Source of the DNA: Verrucomicrobiota bacterium
GTDB lineage: Bacteria > Verrucomicrobiota > Verrucomicrobiia > Verrucomicrobiales > Akkermansiaceae
Assembly (NCBI GenBank): GCA_004293445.1
Contig: RDYP01000007.1
Span: 1 to 64,000, forward strand
Reading direction: 5' to 3'
Length of the DNA stretch: 64,000 nt
In this document: positions 25,273 to 31,342 of the stretch, piece by piece
Numbering within the stretch: position 1 is the stretch's first letter
How the letters are laid out: the number at the start of each line of letters is the position of its first letter
The notes under the pieces: model-generated
The model's database searches: none
What the model was told of the DNA's origin: nothing
The model's input: the letters and a program-made list of their open reading frames with translations, nothing else
Made by a program: the position numbers and the translations under genes

Positions 25273-25821
25273 TTACTGCTCGGCCGCCAATCGACGCAAC
25301 TGACGACGAAGGCTGATCTTGGCCGCAGGAGAGACTCGATCAATGTAAAGCACCCCGTTGAGATGATCCGTCTCGTGCTGGATCGCCCGGGCGAGCAAGC
25401 CATCGGTCTCGATCTCCAACACGGTGCCGTCCAATTGCGGTAGGCGCGCCTTGATCACGCTCGGCCGACTGACATCCGCCCGCAAATCCCGGATCGAAAG
25501 GCAGCCCTCGGTGTCCCGCTCCTTCGGACCGACAAATTCCAATTCGGGGTTGATGAACACGAGGGGCATGATCGAAGCCAAGGGCGCATCCTGGCCACCC
25601 ACCTTGAGAAAACTGATGCACTCCGGATCGTGGGAGACATCGACCACCGCCAAACGCAAAGCGACACCCACTTGAGGCGCGGCAAGCCCGACACCGTTGG
25701 CGTCGTTCATGGTCTCCAACATATCACCCACCAGTTGGCGCAAGGAATCATCCACAACACCGACCGGCTTGCAACGCTCGCGGAGGACCGGATGCCCATA
25801 CTGTACGATTTCGAGAATCAT
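25273..25821 (-). CDS. def: Peptide deformylase
   Basis: GVGLAAPQVG, EGCLSI, QHETDHLNGVLYIDR. Confidence 0.97.
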   Translation of the reverse strand: MILEIVQYGHPVLRERCKPVGVVDDSLRQLVGDMLETMNDANGVGLAAPQVGVALRLAVVDVSHDPECISFLKVGGQDAPLASIMPLVFINPELEFVGPKERDTEGCLSIRDLRADVSRPSVIKARLPQLDGTVLEIETDGLLARAIQHETDHLNGVLYIDRVSPAAKISLRRQLRRLAAEQ

Positions 25822-25837
25822 CGGAAGGAATGCCCGC

Positions 25838-26257
25838 TTATTGAGGAAGCCGGATGCGGGCGGGGACTTCCTTAATCGGGATTCCGGCCCGGGTCAACGC
25901 GTCCCACACCTCGAGCAGTTTCTCCAGTGAAAGATTTTTGTCGGCCTCCAGCTCGAGCTTGCGCCCCGGATTCTCCTTCTGGAAAGCCCGCAGATAGGCC
26001 TCCAGCAACTTGGCGTCCGGGACCGGGACGGCGTCCAAAGTGATCCGCCCCTCCTTGTCGACCGCCAGCACCGATCGTTCATCCATCACCTCGCTGCCCG
26101 CGACCTCGCGCACCGTCGGCAGTTCGATCGGCAAAATGGTCCGCGGCTTCTTGAAGGTGGTCGAGACGATCAGGAAAATCAGCACGATGAACAGGATGTC
26201 GATCATCGGCACGATCGGCACGCCACGGGAACTCCTAGCAGGGCGGTAAAATTGCAT
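25838..26257 (-). CDS. exbD: ExbD/TolR-family biopolymer transport protein
   Basis: VPIVPMIDILFIVLIFLIVSTTF transmembrane segment with the conserved Asp. Confidence 0.9.
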   Translation of the reverse strand: MQFYRPARSSRGVPIVPMIDILFIVLIFLIVSTTFKKPRTILPIELPTVREVAGSEVMDERSVLAVDKEGRITLDAVPVPDAKLLEAYLRAFQKENPGRKLELEADKNLSLEKLLEVWDALTRAGIPIKEVPARIRLPQ

Positions 26258-26263
26258 CGCGTT

Positions 26264-26932
26264 TCAGGATTGCGGGGAGCTGGACGACGGCTCGCAAGCT
26301 TGGGCCACACGGGTAAGCAGCACTTCCAAACGGGCCGCCATGGTGTCGATGCGACGCTGGAACCAGCCCTGGGCCACCACCGCAGGAATCGAAATGGCGA
26401 GGCCGACGATGGTGGTGTTCAAAGCCCGCCCGATCCCGAGCGCGACCGCGGTGTGATCCGAGCTGTCACCCAAGCCGCCAAAGACCACCACCAAACCGCT
26501 CGCCGTGCCGAGCAAACCCAATAGGGGGGCGACGGTGATCACCACGTCGAGCGCGGTCATTCCAGCATGCAGGTGGACGATCTCCTCCCGCGCGGCAGCC
26601 TGCACCGCTTCGGCGATCTCGGCCTTCGACTTCGCACGATGCCGCAAGGCCACCGCACACAAACGGGCCAGGCAACTGCCACCCCGCTCCAACTCCTCCC
26701 CGGCCAATCCCACGATGGGACGCTCACAAAAACGCTCCACCGCCTGCGCCAACTTTTCGGGAACCACCGCGCCACGCCGCAACGACAGGACTTTGAAAAA
26801 GATCACCGTCACCGCGACCAAGGAACAGCCCGCCAGCAGCACCATGAAAAATCCACCCTCCTCGAAAAACTTCCAGACTGCCTGGAGGCCTTCAACTTGG
26901 GTCGCAGCGGCAAAAAACGAAAGCATCGACAT
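26264..26932 (-). CDS. exbB: MotA/TolQ/ExbB proton channel family protein
   Basis: APLLGLLGTASGLVVVFGGLG and LNTTIVGLAISIPAVVAQGWFQRRIDTM. Confidence 0.92.
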   Translation of the reverse strand: MSMLSFFAAATQVEGLQAVWKFFEEGGFFMVLLAGCSLVAVTVIFFKVLSLRRGAVVPEKLAQAVERFCERPIVGLAGEELERGGSCLARLCAVALRHRAKSKAEIAEAVQAAAREEIVHLHAGMTALDVVITVAPLLGLLGTASGLVVVFGGLGDSSDHTAVALGIGRALNTTIVGLAISIPAVVAQGWFQRRIDTMAARLEVLLTRVAQACEPSSSSPQS

Positions 26933-26943
26933 GGCGGTTGGGA

Positions 26944-28071
26944 TCAAAAGTTGAAACGGTAAATGAATTCCAAAGGCTCGCCGTCGAGCTGCTTTTTCAA
27001 GTCGGCCGGCATTCCCGGAATCTCCGCACCTTGAATGCTCTTGAGCGTGAAACCCTTCGGTATGGCTCCCACTTCGACGTCTTCGACCACGGACACTCCG
27101 CGAACCTTCCCGGACGCGTCCAGCAGGAAACTCATCGTCAAAAGCCCTGGCGTGATGTAATCGCGATTCCGGACGCAATTCCGCTGCCACTCTTTTTCCA
27201 CCGCACGACTCACCGCGGCATGGTAGCGGCCCAGGACGGAATCCTCGACATTCAACGCCGAGCGACCGCTGCGGGCGATCGAGCCCTCGAGCCGAGTCTT
27301 TTTTTGATTCCCACGAAACCCCGGCGACGATGCTTCCGCCGCCGCTTCACCATTCCCGACCGCAGCGGACTGAAGCGCCTTCTCGGCTTCGCTCTGCGAC
27401 TCACCCTCAGAACGCCGATCCGTAGGCGATGGCTTGGGTGCCTCGTCCACGGCTTTCCGCTCCTCCACCATCCGGTCCACCGGTAAAGGACCCTCCGCCA
27501 GACGCTCCTGCTCGCGCTCGGGCATGGCGTCTGCCGGCCGCTGATCCGCGGCCGCCTCGGTCGATGCCGCTTCCGCCCCGGGCGGTCGAGCCGCTGTCGC
27601 CGATGCATCCGCCACCCGCTCGCTCGCCAACTCACCGTCCTGATAGTCGCTCTCGGTGGTCTCGACCTCGTCCTCAAATTCAGGTTCCCGACCCCTCTGA
27701 CTCGGCTGATCCGGAGCACCCACCACCGCAGGCGCATCGCTCGTCGCCCGGGTATTCCGCTCACCGATAAAATCCGCCTTTTCCGGAGCTTCCTCCACCT
27801 GATCTGGAGAAGTCCGGGCGAAACGAGACCCTGCTGCCACTTCCTCGACCGGATCAGGCACGGTCTCCGGCACGGACTTCGCCGCAGCCATGGGCACGAT
27901 CATCGCCACCGTCTCCAAAGGCGCTGCGACCGGCGGCGGACGCAGCACGATCCGCTCCACCATCCACCAAGCCGCCATCAGCAAGACCAAGGCATTGAGC
28001 AAGGCCGACGCCACAAAGGCCGCCAGCCACAGCCTCGCTTGGCTTTGAAAGGGAGAGAGCGCCGCTCGCAT
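26944..28071 (-). CDS. TonB-like energy transducer
   Basis: Single N-terminal TM, long charged P/E-rich linker, C-terminal TonB-like domain (AAVSRAVEKEWQRNCVRNRDYITPGLLTMSFLLDASGKVRGVSVVEDV); downstream of exbB/exbD in the same orientation. Confidence 0.72.
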   Translation of the reverse strand: MRAALSPFQSQARLWLAAFVASALLNALVLLMAAWWMVERIVLRPPPVAAPLETVAMIVPMAAAKSVPETVPDPVEEVAAGSRFARTSPDQVEEAPEKADFIGERNTRATSDAPAVVGAPDQPSQRGREPEFEDEVETTESDYQDGELASERVADASATAARPPGAEAASTEAAADQRPADAMPEREQERLAEGPLPVDRMVEERKAVDEAPKPSPTDRRSEGESQSEAEKALQSAAVGNGEAAAEASSPGFRGNQKKTRLEGSIARSGRSALNVEDSVLGRYHAAVSRAVEKEWQRNCVRNRDYITPGLLTMSFLLDASGKVRGVSVVEDVEVGAIPKGFTLKSIQGAEIPGMPADLKKQLDGEPLEFIYRFNF

Positions 28072-28205
28072 GGGAAGTCGGGCAAAGACTCCACTGGAAG
28101 CCACCACCCTGCAATCCGGGAAATCCCAGCTCCGACCCGAGACATTCTAGATCGCCCAGACCGCCGCCGAAAAAACGCCGGTGCCTTGGCTCGCAGACCT
28201 CGCGA

Positions 28206-29573
28206 TCAGCCACCCCGCGCCAGCTTCCAGCACTCCAGAAACCCGCTCGCAAAGTCCTCCGGCCGCGCCGTAATCCACTTCTCCAACTCGTCGGGCTTCA
28301 TCCACAAGGCCGCCTCGACCTCCGCACACGGAAAACGCGGCACTCCATCCCAGCGCGCCAAAAACAGACGCACGTGCTCCCAGCCCGTCCCCTCGCAGGG
28401 CGCGATCCGGCCGATTTCCTCGGCTGCCACCCCGACGACCCCCATTTCCTCCTCCATCTCCCGCAAGGCGGCATCGGCATAATCCTCACCCGCATCCAAA
28501 TGCCCCGCCACGCTGGAATCCCACACGCCCGGATGGACGTCCTTGAAGCGCGAACGCTTCTGCAAAAGCAACTCGCCATGACGATTCACCACGAACACGT
28601 GCACGGCACGATGCAGCAAACCCCGGGCATGAACCTCGCTGCGAGTGGCCTGCCCCGTCACTTCGTCCGCCTCGTTCACCACATCGAATATCTCCTCCCC
28701 CCGCTGCGGCACGTCCCGCAGTGGATGCTCGTCGTAAAAACGCGCCAAACCCACCCACTGCGCCAAAGAAAGCTCCTCCGCGCGGGCCGTCAACGCCGCC
28801 CCCACCTCCTCACAAGCCGCCTCCCAGGATCGGGATTCCGGCATCGATTTGCCCATCTGCTTCCGACGCTGCGCGAAACCTCGCCGAATCAATTCATCGA
28901 AGCGCCGCGCGTCAAAGGCCGGCAAATCCACCCCGCGCGGCAGCAGCAAGGCCACCGAGGAATCAATCTGTGGCCGCGGATGAAACGCCTCGGGCGGCAC
29001 CGTCCGCAAGGACCGCACCGTCCACTCGCTTTGCACCCGCAAAGTCAGCACCCCATACTCCTTCGTCCGCGGCCCGGCGGCCAGACGCTCGATCACTTCC
29101 TTCTGCAGCATCACCACCGCGCGCTCGAAGGGATTCGGACGCGATAGGAAATTCCGCAGGATCGCCCCCCCACAGGAATAGGGGAGATTCCCGAGAAATT
29201 TCACCGGCCGATGCTGGAAAAGCACCCGCGCATCGAATTTCACGGCATCCGCATGATGCACTTCCACGGAAGGCTCGTCCGCGAAACGCTCCCGCAACCA
29301 GGCCGCCAAGCGGGAGTCGAACTCCACCAGCACCATCCGCTTCACCTTGCCGACCAGATGCCCGGTCAAGGCACCTGTTCCCGGACCGACCTCCACCACC
29401 GTATCCTCTGGCCCGGCATCGAGCTGATCGGTGATCCAACGCGCCATGTTCGGGTCGCAGAGGAAATTCTGCCCCAGTTGCCGGCTCGGCATCACTCCAG
29501 CGGATTCAAGCGCATCGCGGATCTCTTGTCCTGTCACGCCGCGACCGATGTCCCCTCGACCGCCTCCCGGCAA
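28206..29573 (-). CDS. rsmA: 16S rRNA dimethyladenosine transferase (RsmA/KsgA) fused to C-terminal Nudix hydrolase
   Basis: N-terminal half: SRQLGQNFLCDPNMARWI, VVEVGPGTGALTGHL, KFLGNLPYSCGGAIL, FHPRPQIDSSV. C-terminal half: perfect Nudix box GHLDAGEDYADAALREMEEEMGV. Single continuous ORF. Confidence 0.92.
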   Translation of the reverse strand: MPGGGRGDIGRGVTGQEIRDALESAGVMPSRQLGQNFLCDPNMARWITDQLDAGPEDTVVEVGPGTGALTGHLVGKVKRMVLVEFDSRLAAWLRERFADEPSVEVHHADAVKFDARVLFQHRPVKFLGNLPYSCGGAILRNFLSRPNPFERAVVMLQKEVIERLAAGPRTKEYGVLTLRVQSEWTVRSLRTVPPEAFHPRPQIDSSVALLLPRGVDLPAFDARRFDELIRRGFAQRRKQMGKSMPESRSWEAACEEVGAALTARAEELSLAQWVGLARFYDEHPLRDVPQRGEEIFDVVNEADEVTGQATRSEVHARGLLHRAVHVFVVNRHGELLLQKRSRFKDVHPGVWDSSVAGHLDAGEDYADAALREMEEEMGVVGVAAEEIGRIAPCEGTGWEHVRLFLARWDGVPRFPCAEVEAALWMKPDELEKWITARPEDFASGFLECWKLARGG

Positions 29574-29701
29574 GATCGCTTTCCGAGAAAACCATGAAAA
29601 ACCCCTCCAGCAGGGACCCGCCGCGCCCGCGAATTTGGATTGATGCCCTCCCGGTCGCTCCCTTTACTTCCGCGCCCCACCGGCACACCCTTTTAGCGTC
29701 C

Positions 29702-31342
29702 ATGATCGAACACCTCCGCAAATACACCGGCCTGATCATCTTCGTGGTCGCCCTCCTCTTCGTCGGCCTCGCCTTCTTCGGCGATACCGCCAGCATGGGC
29801 GGCCGCAACTCGAACGACCCGCCAGCACTGGCCGTCGACGGCAAAAGCTACAGCTACAGCGAAGTCCAAAAGGGCGGCAAATCCGCACGCCAACTCGCCG
29901 AAGGCCTCCGCCTCTTCGAACTGCTGATGGCCACCGACAGCTTCACCATGGGCCCTGACGCGCAGGCCGACCAACGCTTCTTCGTCAATCGCCTGCTCCT
30001 TCAGCAAGCCCGCGAAGAATTCGGCGTCCACCCCTCCGATGAGGAAGTCTCCGCCTCCCTCAAAACCATCACCGCCTTCCAAACCCCAGAAGGAGCCTTC
30101 GATCAGCAGCGCTACAACGACATCGCCACCAAGTTCATCGGTAGCCTCGGTATGGACGAACAGGACATGATCGAAATCCTCCGCGACAACCTCGCCACCC
30201 GCAAACTCGCCGAGATCATCGGCGGAGGCCTCGCCGCCGACCGGAAGTTCGCCGCCGAACAGGTCGCCAGCAACGACCAACAAGTCAGCCTCCAGATCGC
30301 CCGCGTTCCGCTCTCGAAATTCCAGGAGTCGGTCAAACCGACCGATGAGGAACTGAACACCGCTTGGGAAACCACCAAGGAAAAATATCAGACCGAACGC
30401 CGCATCAAGGTCAGCTACTTCATCGCCAAGCCGAACTATCCGGAACTCAAGCTCGACGCGCCAAAACTCCCCGACGCGGTCACCGAAGAAGCCAAGAAGG
30501 CCGCCGAAAAAGAAGCCGCTGACAAGAAAGCCGCCGCCGAAGCCGCCCACGCCGAAACCAAACGCGGCGTGGATAACGAACTCGCCGACGTGGTCGATTC
30601 CTTCCTCCAAGACCTCGAAGCAAGCGACGGCAAAGACCTCGAAAAACTCGCCGAGGAAAACCAATGGGAACTCGTCACCACCGACTTCTTTCCCCGCTCA
30701 GCCACCCCACCTGCCCTCGCGGTCAACCTCCGCTCCGCCAGAAACCCACGCCCCGTCGCCGACCTCCTCTTCCAACTCAGCCTCGGCAAGGAGAGCATGA
30801 CCCGCTTCACCGATGCCCTGCCCATCGCCGACGGCGCCTTCCTGATCGCCCGCCTCGACGCAGAGGAAGCCGTCCGCGACAAAAACTTCGACGAAGCCAA
30901 GGAGGAAGTCCGCAGCGACTTCATCGCCAAGGCCGCCGCCGAAGCCCTCAAAAAGGACGCCGACGACAAAGCCGCGAAAATCCGCGAAGGACTCGCCGCC
31001 GGTAAGGCCTTCGTCGACCTCGCCAAAGAGCAAGGCCTCGAGCCCAAGGCCCTCGGCCCCTTCAAGTCGAGCGACAAACTCGATGGCGAAGCCGATACCG
31101 CCAGCCTGTTCCAGACCGCTTCGCTCATCGATCCCGGTAGCCTCGCCGACCCCGTCGTCCAGGCCGATGGCTCGCTCTTCGTCTTCGTCGAGAAACGGGA
31201 AATCGTGAAAGACCCCGCCCGCGAGAGCCGCATCGAAAGCTCCCTCCAAGGCATCCGCGCCAACCACGAACGGCTCGTGTTCTCGGCTTGGATGACCAGC
31301 CGACTCGATGCCACCAAGGTCGAGGAAATCCTTCCGCGCTGA
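29702..31342 (+). CDS. SurA/PpiD-like peptidyl-prolyl isomerase or chaperone (SurA N-terminal domain)
   Basis: MIEHLRKYTGLIIFVVALLFVGLAFFG anchor followed by a SurA_N-type region (LAVDGKSYSYSEVQ...NRLLLQQAREEFGVHPSDEEV). Confidence 0.75.
   Translation: MIEHLRKYTGLIIFVVALLFVGLAFFGDTASMGGRNSNDPPALAVDGKSYSYSEVQKGGKSARQLAEGLRLFELLMATDSFTMGPDAQADQRFFVNRLLLQQAREEFGVHPSDEEVSASLKTITAFQTPEGAFDQQRYNDIATKFIGSLGMDEQDMIEILRDNLATRKLAEIIGGGLAADRKFAAEQVASNDQQVSLQIARVPLSKFQESVKPTDEELNTAWETTKEKYQTERRIKVSYFIAKPNYPELKLDAPKLPDAVTEEAKKAAEKEAADKKAAAEAAHAETKRGVDNELADVVDSFLQDLEASDGKDLEKLAEENQWELVTTDFFPRSATPPALAVNLRSARNPRPVADLLFQLSLGKESMTRFTDALPIADGAFLIARLDAEEAVRDKNFDEAKEEVRSDFIAKAAAEALKKDADDKAAKIREGLAAGKAFVDLAKEQGLEPKALGPFKSSDKLDGEADTASLFQTASLIDPGSLADPVVQADGSLFVFVEKREIVKDPARESRIESSLQGIRANHERLVFSAWMTSRLDATKVEEILPR

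Follow-up and report, generated by a model that had tools for sequence, protein, structure and literature searches.

Fusion of the rRNA dimethyltransferase RsmA to a Nudix domain in Akkermansiaceae: a probable bifunctional enzyme grown from a coupled gene pair

The window analysed here, a stretch of 64,000 nucleotides from a member of the Akkermansiaceae, carries a single gene in which a complete RsmA (KsgA) domain is followed by a complete Nudix domain. RsmA is the enzyme that adds the universal double methyl mark to small-subunit rRNA (A1518/A1519 dimethylation); to our knowledge, few RNA-modifying enzymes are as highly conserved, and it normally stands alone. The active-site residues of both domains are conserved in the fused protein, and within the class coupled rsmA and nudix genes are found beside fused sisters, with repeated changes of state. 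The reading that we favour, with rather more confidence than doubt, is that of a bifunctional housekeeping enzyme, an RsmA with an active Nudix half, which would have grown from a coupled gene pair and been fused probably three times. An earlier, sequence-only reading of the window had proposed the fusion and its unusual character, both of which are supported here. We found the RsmA–Nudix fusion undescribed in the literature searched, which covered few subscription papers. The features referred to below are as follows, with residues of the fused protein counted from the TTG at 29573.

28206–29537, minus strand: fused rsmA–nudix gene, most likely GTG start at 29537, 443 aa, with full-length Akkermansiaceae homologues
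28734–29483, minus strand: RsmA/KsgA domain (Pfam RrnaAD), residues 31–280, E = 1.3e-51
29367–29399, minus strand: SAM-binding sequence motif VVEVGPGTGAL
29178–29189, minus strand: catalytic sequence motif NLPY
28695–28733, minus strand: short linker, between the end of the RrnaAD match and conserved Glu294, with which the Nudix unit begins
28272–28616, minus strand: Nudix domain (Pfam NUDIX), residues 320–433, E = 1.8e-19
28437–28505, minus strand: Nudix box GHLDAGEDYADAALREMEEEMGV, a perfect sequence match to G-x5-E-x7-RE-x2-EE-x-G-U
25273–28107, minus strand: TonB-like gene (by eye), ExbB, ExbD and peptide deformylase, downstream of the fused gene on the same strand
29594–31342, plus strand: SurA-like protein, upstream of the fused gene and divergent

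The minus-strand frame from 28206 to 29573 is open from end to end, with no stop, and to that extent the uninterrupted 455-residue ORF first described for this region stands. Its TTG start does not: the TTG at 29573 is a mechanical start only and is not generally kept among the family loci, whereas GTG or ATG lies exactly at the codon of 29537 in 30 of 30 family loci (from the genus itself and genus g13), so that the protein is most likely the 443-residue product of the GTG. A stop in the linker was considered and rejected, as the 'stops inside' that were located sit upstream of the start. Chance, a frameshift and mis-assembly were also ruled out as the source of the fusion, because the same fusion recurs across ∼140 independent genomes.

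The RsmA half has all the features by which RsmA/KsgA is recognised, namely the SAM motif, NLPY and the conserved C-terminal domain. It scores 216.7 bits against the NCBIfam ksgA model (TIGR00755), above the equivalog cut-off of 171. Residues E61, G63, P64 and G65 of the SAM motif are invariant in 16 fused proteins, as is NLPY in the same number of proteins from 13 families, and HPRPQIDSSV is present in the C-terminal part. The complete RsmA originally read from these motifs is upheld by the Pfam and equivalog matches; both Pfam hits, RrnaAD and NUDIX, score well over their cut-offs. The AlphaFold2 model superimposes on Bacillus subtilis KsgA (6ift) with a TM-score of 0.83 by target length. 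Compared with known RsmA/KsgA proteins (TIGR00755; 6ifs, 1qyr, 7o5h), the fused protein has the whole catalytic and C-terminal domains, the SAM motif, NLPY and a single gene copy in common; unlike them, it adds a C-terminal Nudix domain where an ordinary RsmA ends at ∼270–290 aa. A genome-wide profile search returned this half as the only RrnaAD match of the genome, and the fused protein should therefore be its working RsmA.

Conservation in the Nudix half was assessed over 102 sequences (71 fused, 18 adjacent and 13 unlinked). The box residues R371, E372, E375 and E376 are invariant, as are H315, H321, H325, H358 and E399, histidines and a glutamate of metal-ligand type, with one partial copy gapped. 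The box with its catalytic glutamates, the mark of a Nudix pyrophosphohydrolase, is thus in place, and the invariance of the box and of the His/Glu positions is as expected of a working enzyme and disfavours a domain that has decayed or has a structural role only. In both sequence and fold the nearest solved relatives are YfcD (TM 0.91) and DR_0079 (TM 0.83), then IPP isomerase (∼0.82); the Pfam match, the box and the proximity to YfcD agree with the complete YfcD/IPP-isomerase-like Nudix domain that had been noticed at the outset. YfcD (2fkb) is the best match, with 33% identity and the same domain boundaries, but it is a stand-alone protein and carries GG in place of the GH that is invariant in the fused family (SSxxGH). 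DR_0079 (1q27/2o5f) belongs to the same Nudix branch but also stands alone, and its box ends in Asn rather than the Gly of the fused family (PMC5389931). As the YfcD equivalog model (NF011922) gives 90 bits against a cut-off of 152, the domain in the window is, on its sequence, a relative of YfcD and not YfcD itself.

It is very improbable that the Nudix half is an isopentenyl-diphosphate isomerase instead of a hydrolase. The isomerase model does match (TIGR02150, 61 bits), the fold of the E. coli enzyme is similar (TM ∼0.82) and several His/Glu positions are held in common, but the scores fall well short of the cut-offs (61.4 against 105.8 for TIGR02150, and 82.1 against 127 for NF002995), 101 of the 102 sequences have Ala or Ser where the isomerase has its catalytic cysteine (NSVCGH), and the perfect hydrolase-type box is kept. 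Identity as a type 1 IPP isomerase was accordingly rejected. Since the YfcD and isomerase cut-offs are both missed, the substrate cannot be read from a family name. We infer that the Nudix half belongs to the YfcD/DR_0079/IPP-isomerase branch as a pyrophosphohydrolase competent for catalysis, with a substrate that would be nucleoside-diphosphate-like. The genome carries five other Nudix matches besides the fused domain. In genome G098 a full fusion is accompanied by an extra copy of the fused-family Nudix domain (L046), partial and stand-alone, which the Nudix tree pairs with the fused Nudix domain of that same genome.

The two halves are joined by a linker that is short and steady in length. 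Of 71 fused proteins, 51 have a spacing of 20 residues between W273 and E294, and the range is 12–27. An AlphaFold2 run using 23 fused homologues gave a compact two-domain protein (mean pLDDT 92.8, pTM 0.89), in which the pLDDT of the linker falls no lower than 73; structure prediction of the linker, which had been proposed as a check, thus returned a confident two-domain model with only a dip at the join. A pTM of 0.89 over two domains suggests that RsmA (∼270 residues) and Nudix (∼165) have a defined relative arrangement, with a putative interface between them.

The fused family was matched in 142 of 145 Akkermansiaceae genomes, and nearly all the matches run across both domains with no stop; the fragments in three genomes (G099, G111 and G130) end at, or a few bases from, contig ends. 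Beyond this set, the named carriers of the fused gene among the matches listed include Akkermansia and Verrucomicrobium sp. BvORR034, together with MAGs assigned to Prosthecobacter (one), the Chthoniobacterales and the Terrimicrobiaceae. Class-wide, the fusion is present in 13 of the ∼53 families sampled (f1, f2, f3, f10, f15, f19, f25, f27, f29, part of f30, f38, f41 and f47). A further set (f4, f5, f11, f16, f18, f23, f24, part of f30, f34, f37, f39, f42, f52 and a Pedosphaera parvula MAG) has adjacent genes, with Nudix 3′ of rsmA on the same strand, mostly <100 bases apart; at L076, L136, L137, L141 and L142 the gap is larger or the start uncertain. In the remaining class families sampled, RsmA and Nudix are unlinked. 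The observation that was to count against the first reading, homologues almost always separate with a stop in the linker, is made in the coupled families but not in Akkermansiaceae or a dozen related families. Sampled genomes from other classes of the phylum have RsmA alone, and the fusion was found in 0 of 79 Planctomycetota, 0 of 60 Pseudomonadota and 0 of 7 genomes chosen from further groups. A Gemmatimonadetes match (L191, 22–388) that looked like a fusion turned out to be RsmA alone. One member of genus g86 (G412, locus L232) has RsmA and no Nudix match, the other g86 members being fused; its Nudix half may have been lost, or the gene may be missing from a genome that is 77% complete. In a Terrimicrobiaceae MAG (L174), RsmA lacks the Nudix half and gives way, at a contig end, to unrelated sequence rich in AT; this is probably an assembly chimera.

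The surroundings of the gene are much less constant. The flanking SurA-like and TonB-like genes are kept only within the genus and a few relatives, beyond which no conserved wider neighbourhood was found; the rsmA–nudix pair is kept further out, and within the class no other neighbour recurs as widely. The genes 3′ of a lone rsmA at ten other loci included no Nudix gene and had no common theme. A SurA-like gene near rsmA is also seen in 15 families with rsmA alone, as with surA in E. coli. A QueE-like gene (queuosine precursor; by eye) lies near the coupled pair in seven families (L133, L087 and other adjacent-pair loci), and an aminotransferase-like gene is likewise near the coupled pair in seven.

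The adjacent pairs point to how the fusion may have come about. At seven loci (L087, L090, L133, L134, L149, L151 and L218) the stop of rsmA and the start of nudix overlap as ATGA, the usual sign of translational coupling, and one small indel would be enough to fuse such a pair. This is the ancestral-looking state, and coupling would have preceded fusion. On a tree built from both domains concatenated, fused proteins occupy three places: a clade of 28 rows (support 100/97), family f3 beside the coupled f11 (100/98), and the f30 fusion, which is placed next to a coupled member of its own family (100/99). The minimum number of changes between fused and unfused states is three, and it is 3–3 across bootstraps. 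A single fused clade was rejected by the AU test (p-AU 1.2e-6), more weakly when the f30 row was dropped (p 0.026). Three g86 genomes carry the f30 fusion, which is therefore not one bad assembly. Taken on the tree, the two genes were probably fused three separate times. A single ancient fusion followed by repeated fission is conceivable, but it requires more events than three fusions; no reversion to separate genes was seen among the ∼140 Akkermansiaceae genomes.

The bifunctional enzyme that we favour would thus begin as adjacent, translationally coupled rsmA and nudix genes, whose fusion into one chain, probably on three occasions, would fix the two halves at 1:1 and in the same place. The Nudix half would cleave a nucleoside-diphosphate-like compound. 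Judged by the conserved residues, both activities of the protein are expected to be real, and stoichiometry or place is the likely gain from fusion: selection may maintain the two halves in equal amounts, or their joint presence at the 30S particle. A tethered Nudix enzyme would sit at the late pre-30S particle bound by KsgA. That the Nudix activity directly serves ribosome assembly is possible, although on balance we doubt it. It counts against this reading that RsmA and Nudix are unlinked in many families of the class, which do without physical coupling, and that the incomplete G412 genome may have lost its Nudix half. Of the options first put forward, simple co-expression by gene fusion receives direct support from the coupled pairs with their ATGA overlaps. 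Another, the removal of a nucleotide by-product, receives none, because the by-product of RsmA is S-adenosylhomocysteine, which offers a Nudix enzyme no diphosphate to cleave.

A serious competitor, to which we give somewhat less than an even chance, is that coupled genes simply drifted into one frame, the Nudix half having an unrelated job and shared expression being the only gain. The ATGA overlaps leave in-frame joining one small indel away and unlinked copies are frequent elsewhere in the class, both as expected of a neutral event; it fits less well with separate fusions in distant families, with the persistence of the fused state in ∼140 Akkermansiaceae genomes, or with the short, steady linker and the confident overall arrangement of the model. 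A more specific role is unlikely but worth stating: with RsmA bound to the late pre-30S particle, the tethered Nudix domain might clear or sense an alarmone-like or damaged nucleotide there, an association that would have arisen separately from the rsmA–apaG–apaH clustering of E. coli. KsgA is a late 30S assembly factor whose catalytically dead form traps pre-30S particles (review PMC9032327), and a ribosome-assembly checkpoint is compatible with that role. Less probable still is a pairing of repair with pool sanitation, in which KsgA would act as a DNA glycosylase and the Nudix half would clean up pyrimidine nucleotides that are oxidised or unwanted. For KsgA of E. coli, DNA binding and the removal of cytosine opposite oxidised thymine have been reported (PMC10091538), and for DR_0079, the second nearest solved relative, a preference for cytosine nucleoside di- and triphosphates is given in a title (Buchko 2008) cited by PMC5389931. 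The glycosylase activity, however, apparently rests on the reports of one group, the genome has its five other Nudix matches, and the neighbouring genes that were typed, those immediately around the fusion, included no repair genes.

The reported KsgA glycosylase activity (PMC10091538) is one lead to function. Another, likewise a lead and no more, is the surA–pdxA–rsmA–apaG–apaH arrangement of E. coli, in which rsmA is again, as a separate case, clustered with the gene of a nucleotide hydrolase: two genes 3′ of rsmA lies that of a dinucleoside polyphosphate hydrolase. There, however, the genes are separate, ApaH is a non-Nudix enzyme, and the likeness is one of gene neighbourhood only. Akkermansia is a gut bacterium of wide interest, and in it and many relatives the rsmA annotation conceals a second, putative enzyme. 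The repeated, clade-wide gain of a domain from a coupled pair points to a possible link between 30S maturation and nucleotide metabolism.
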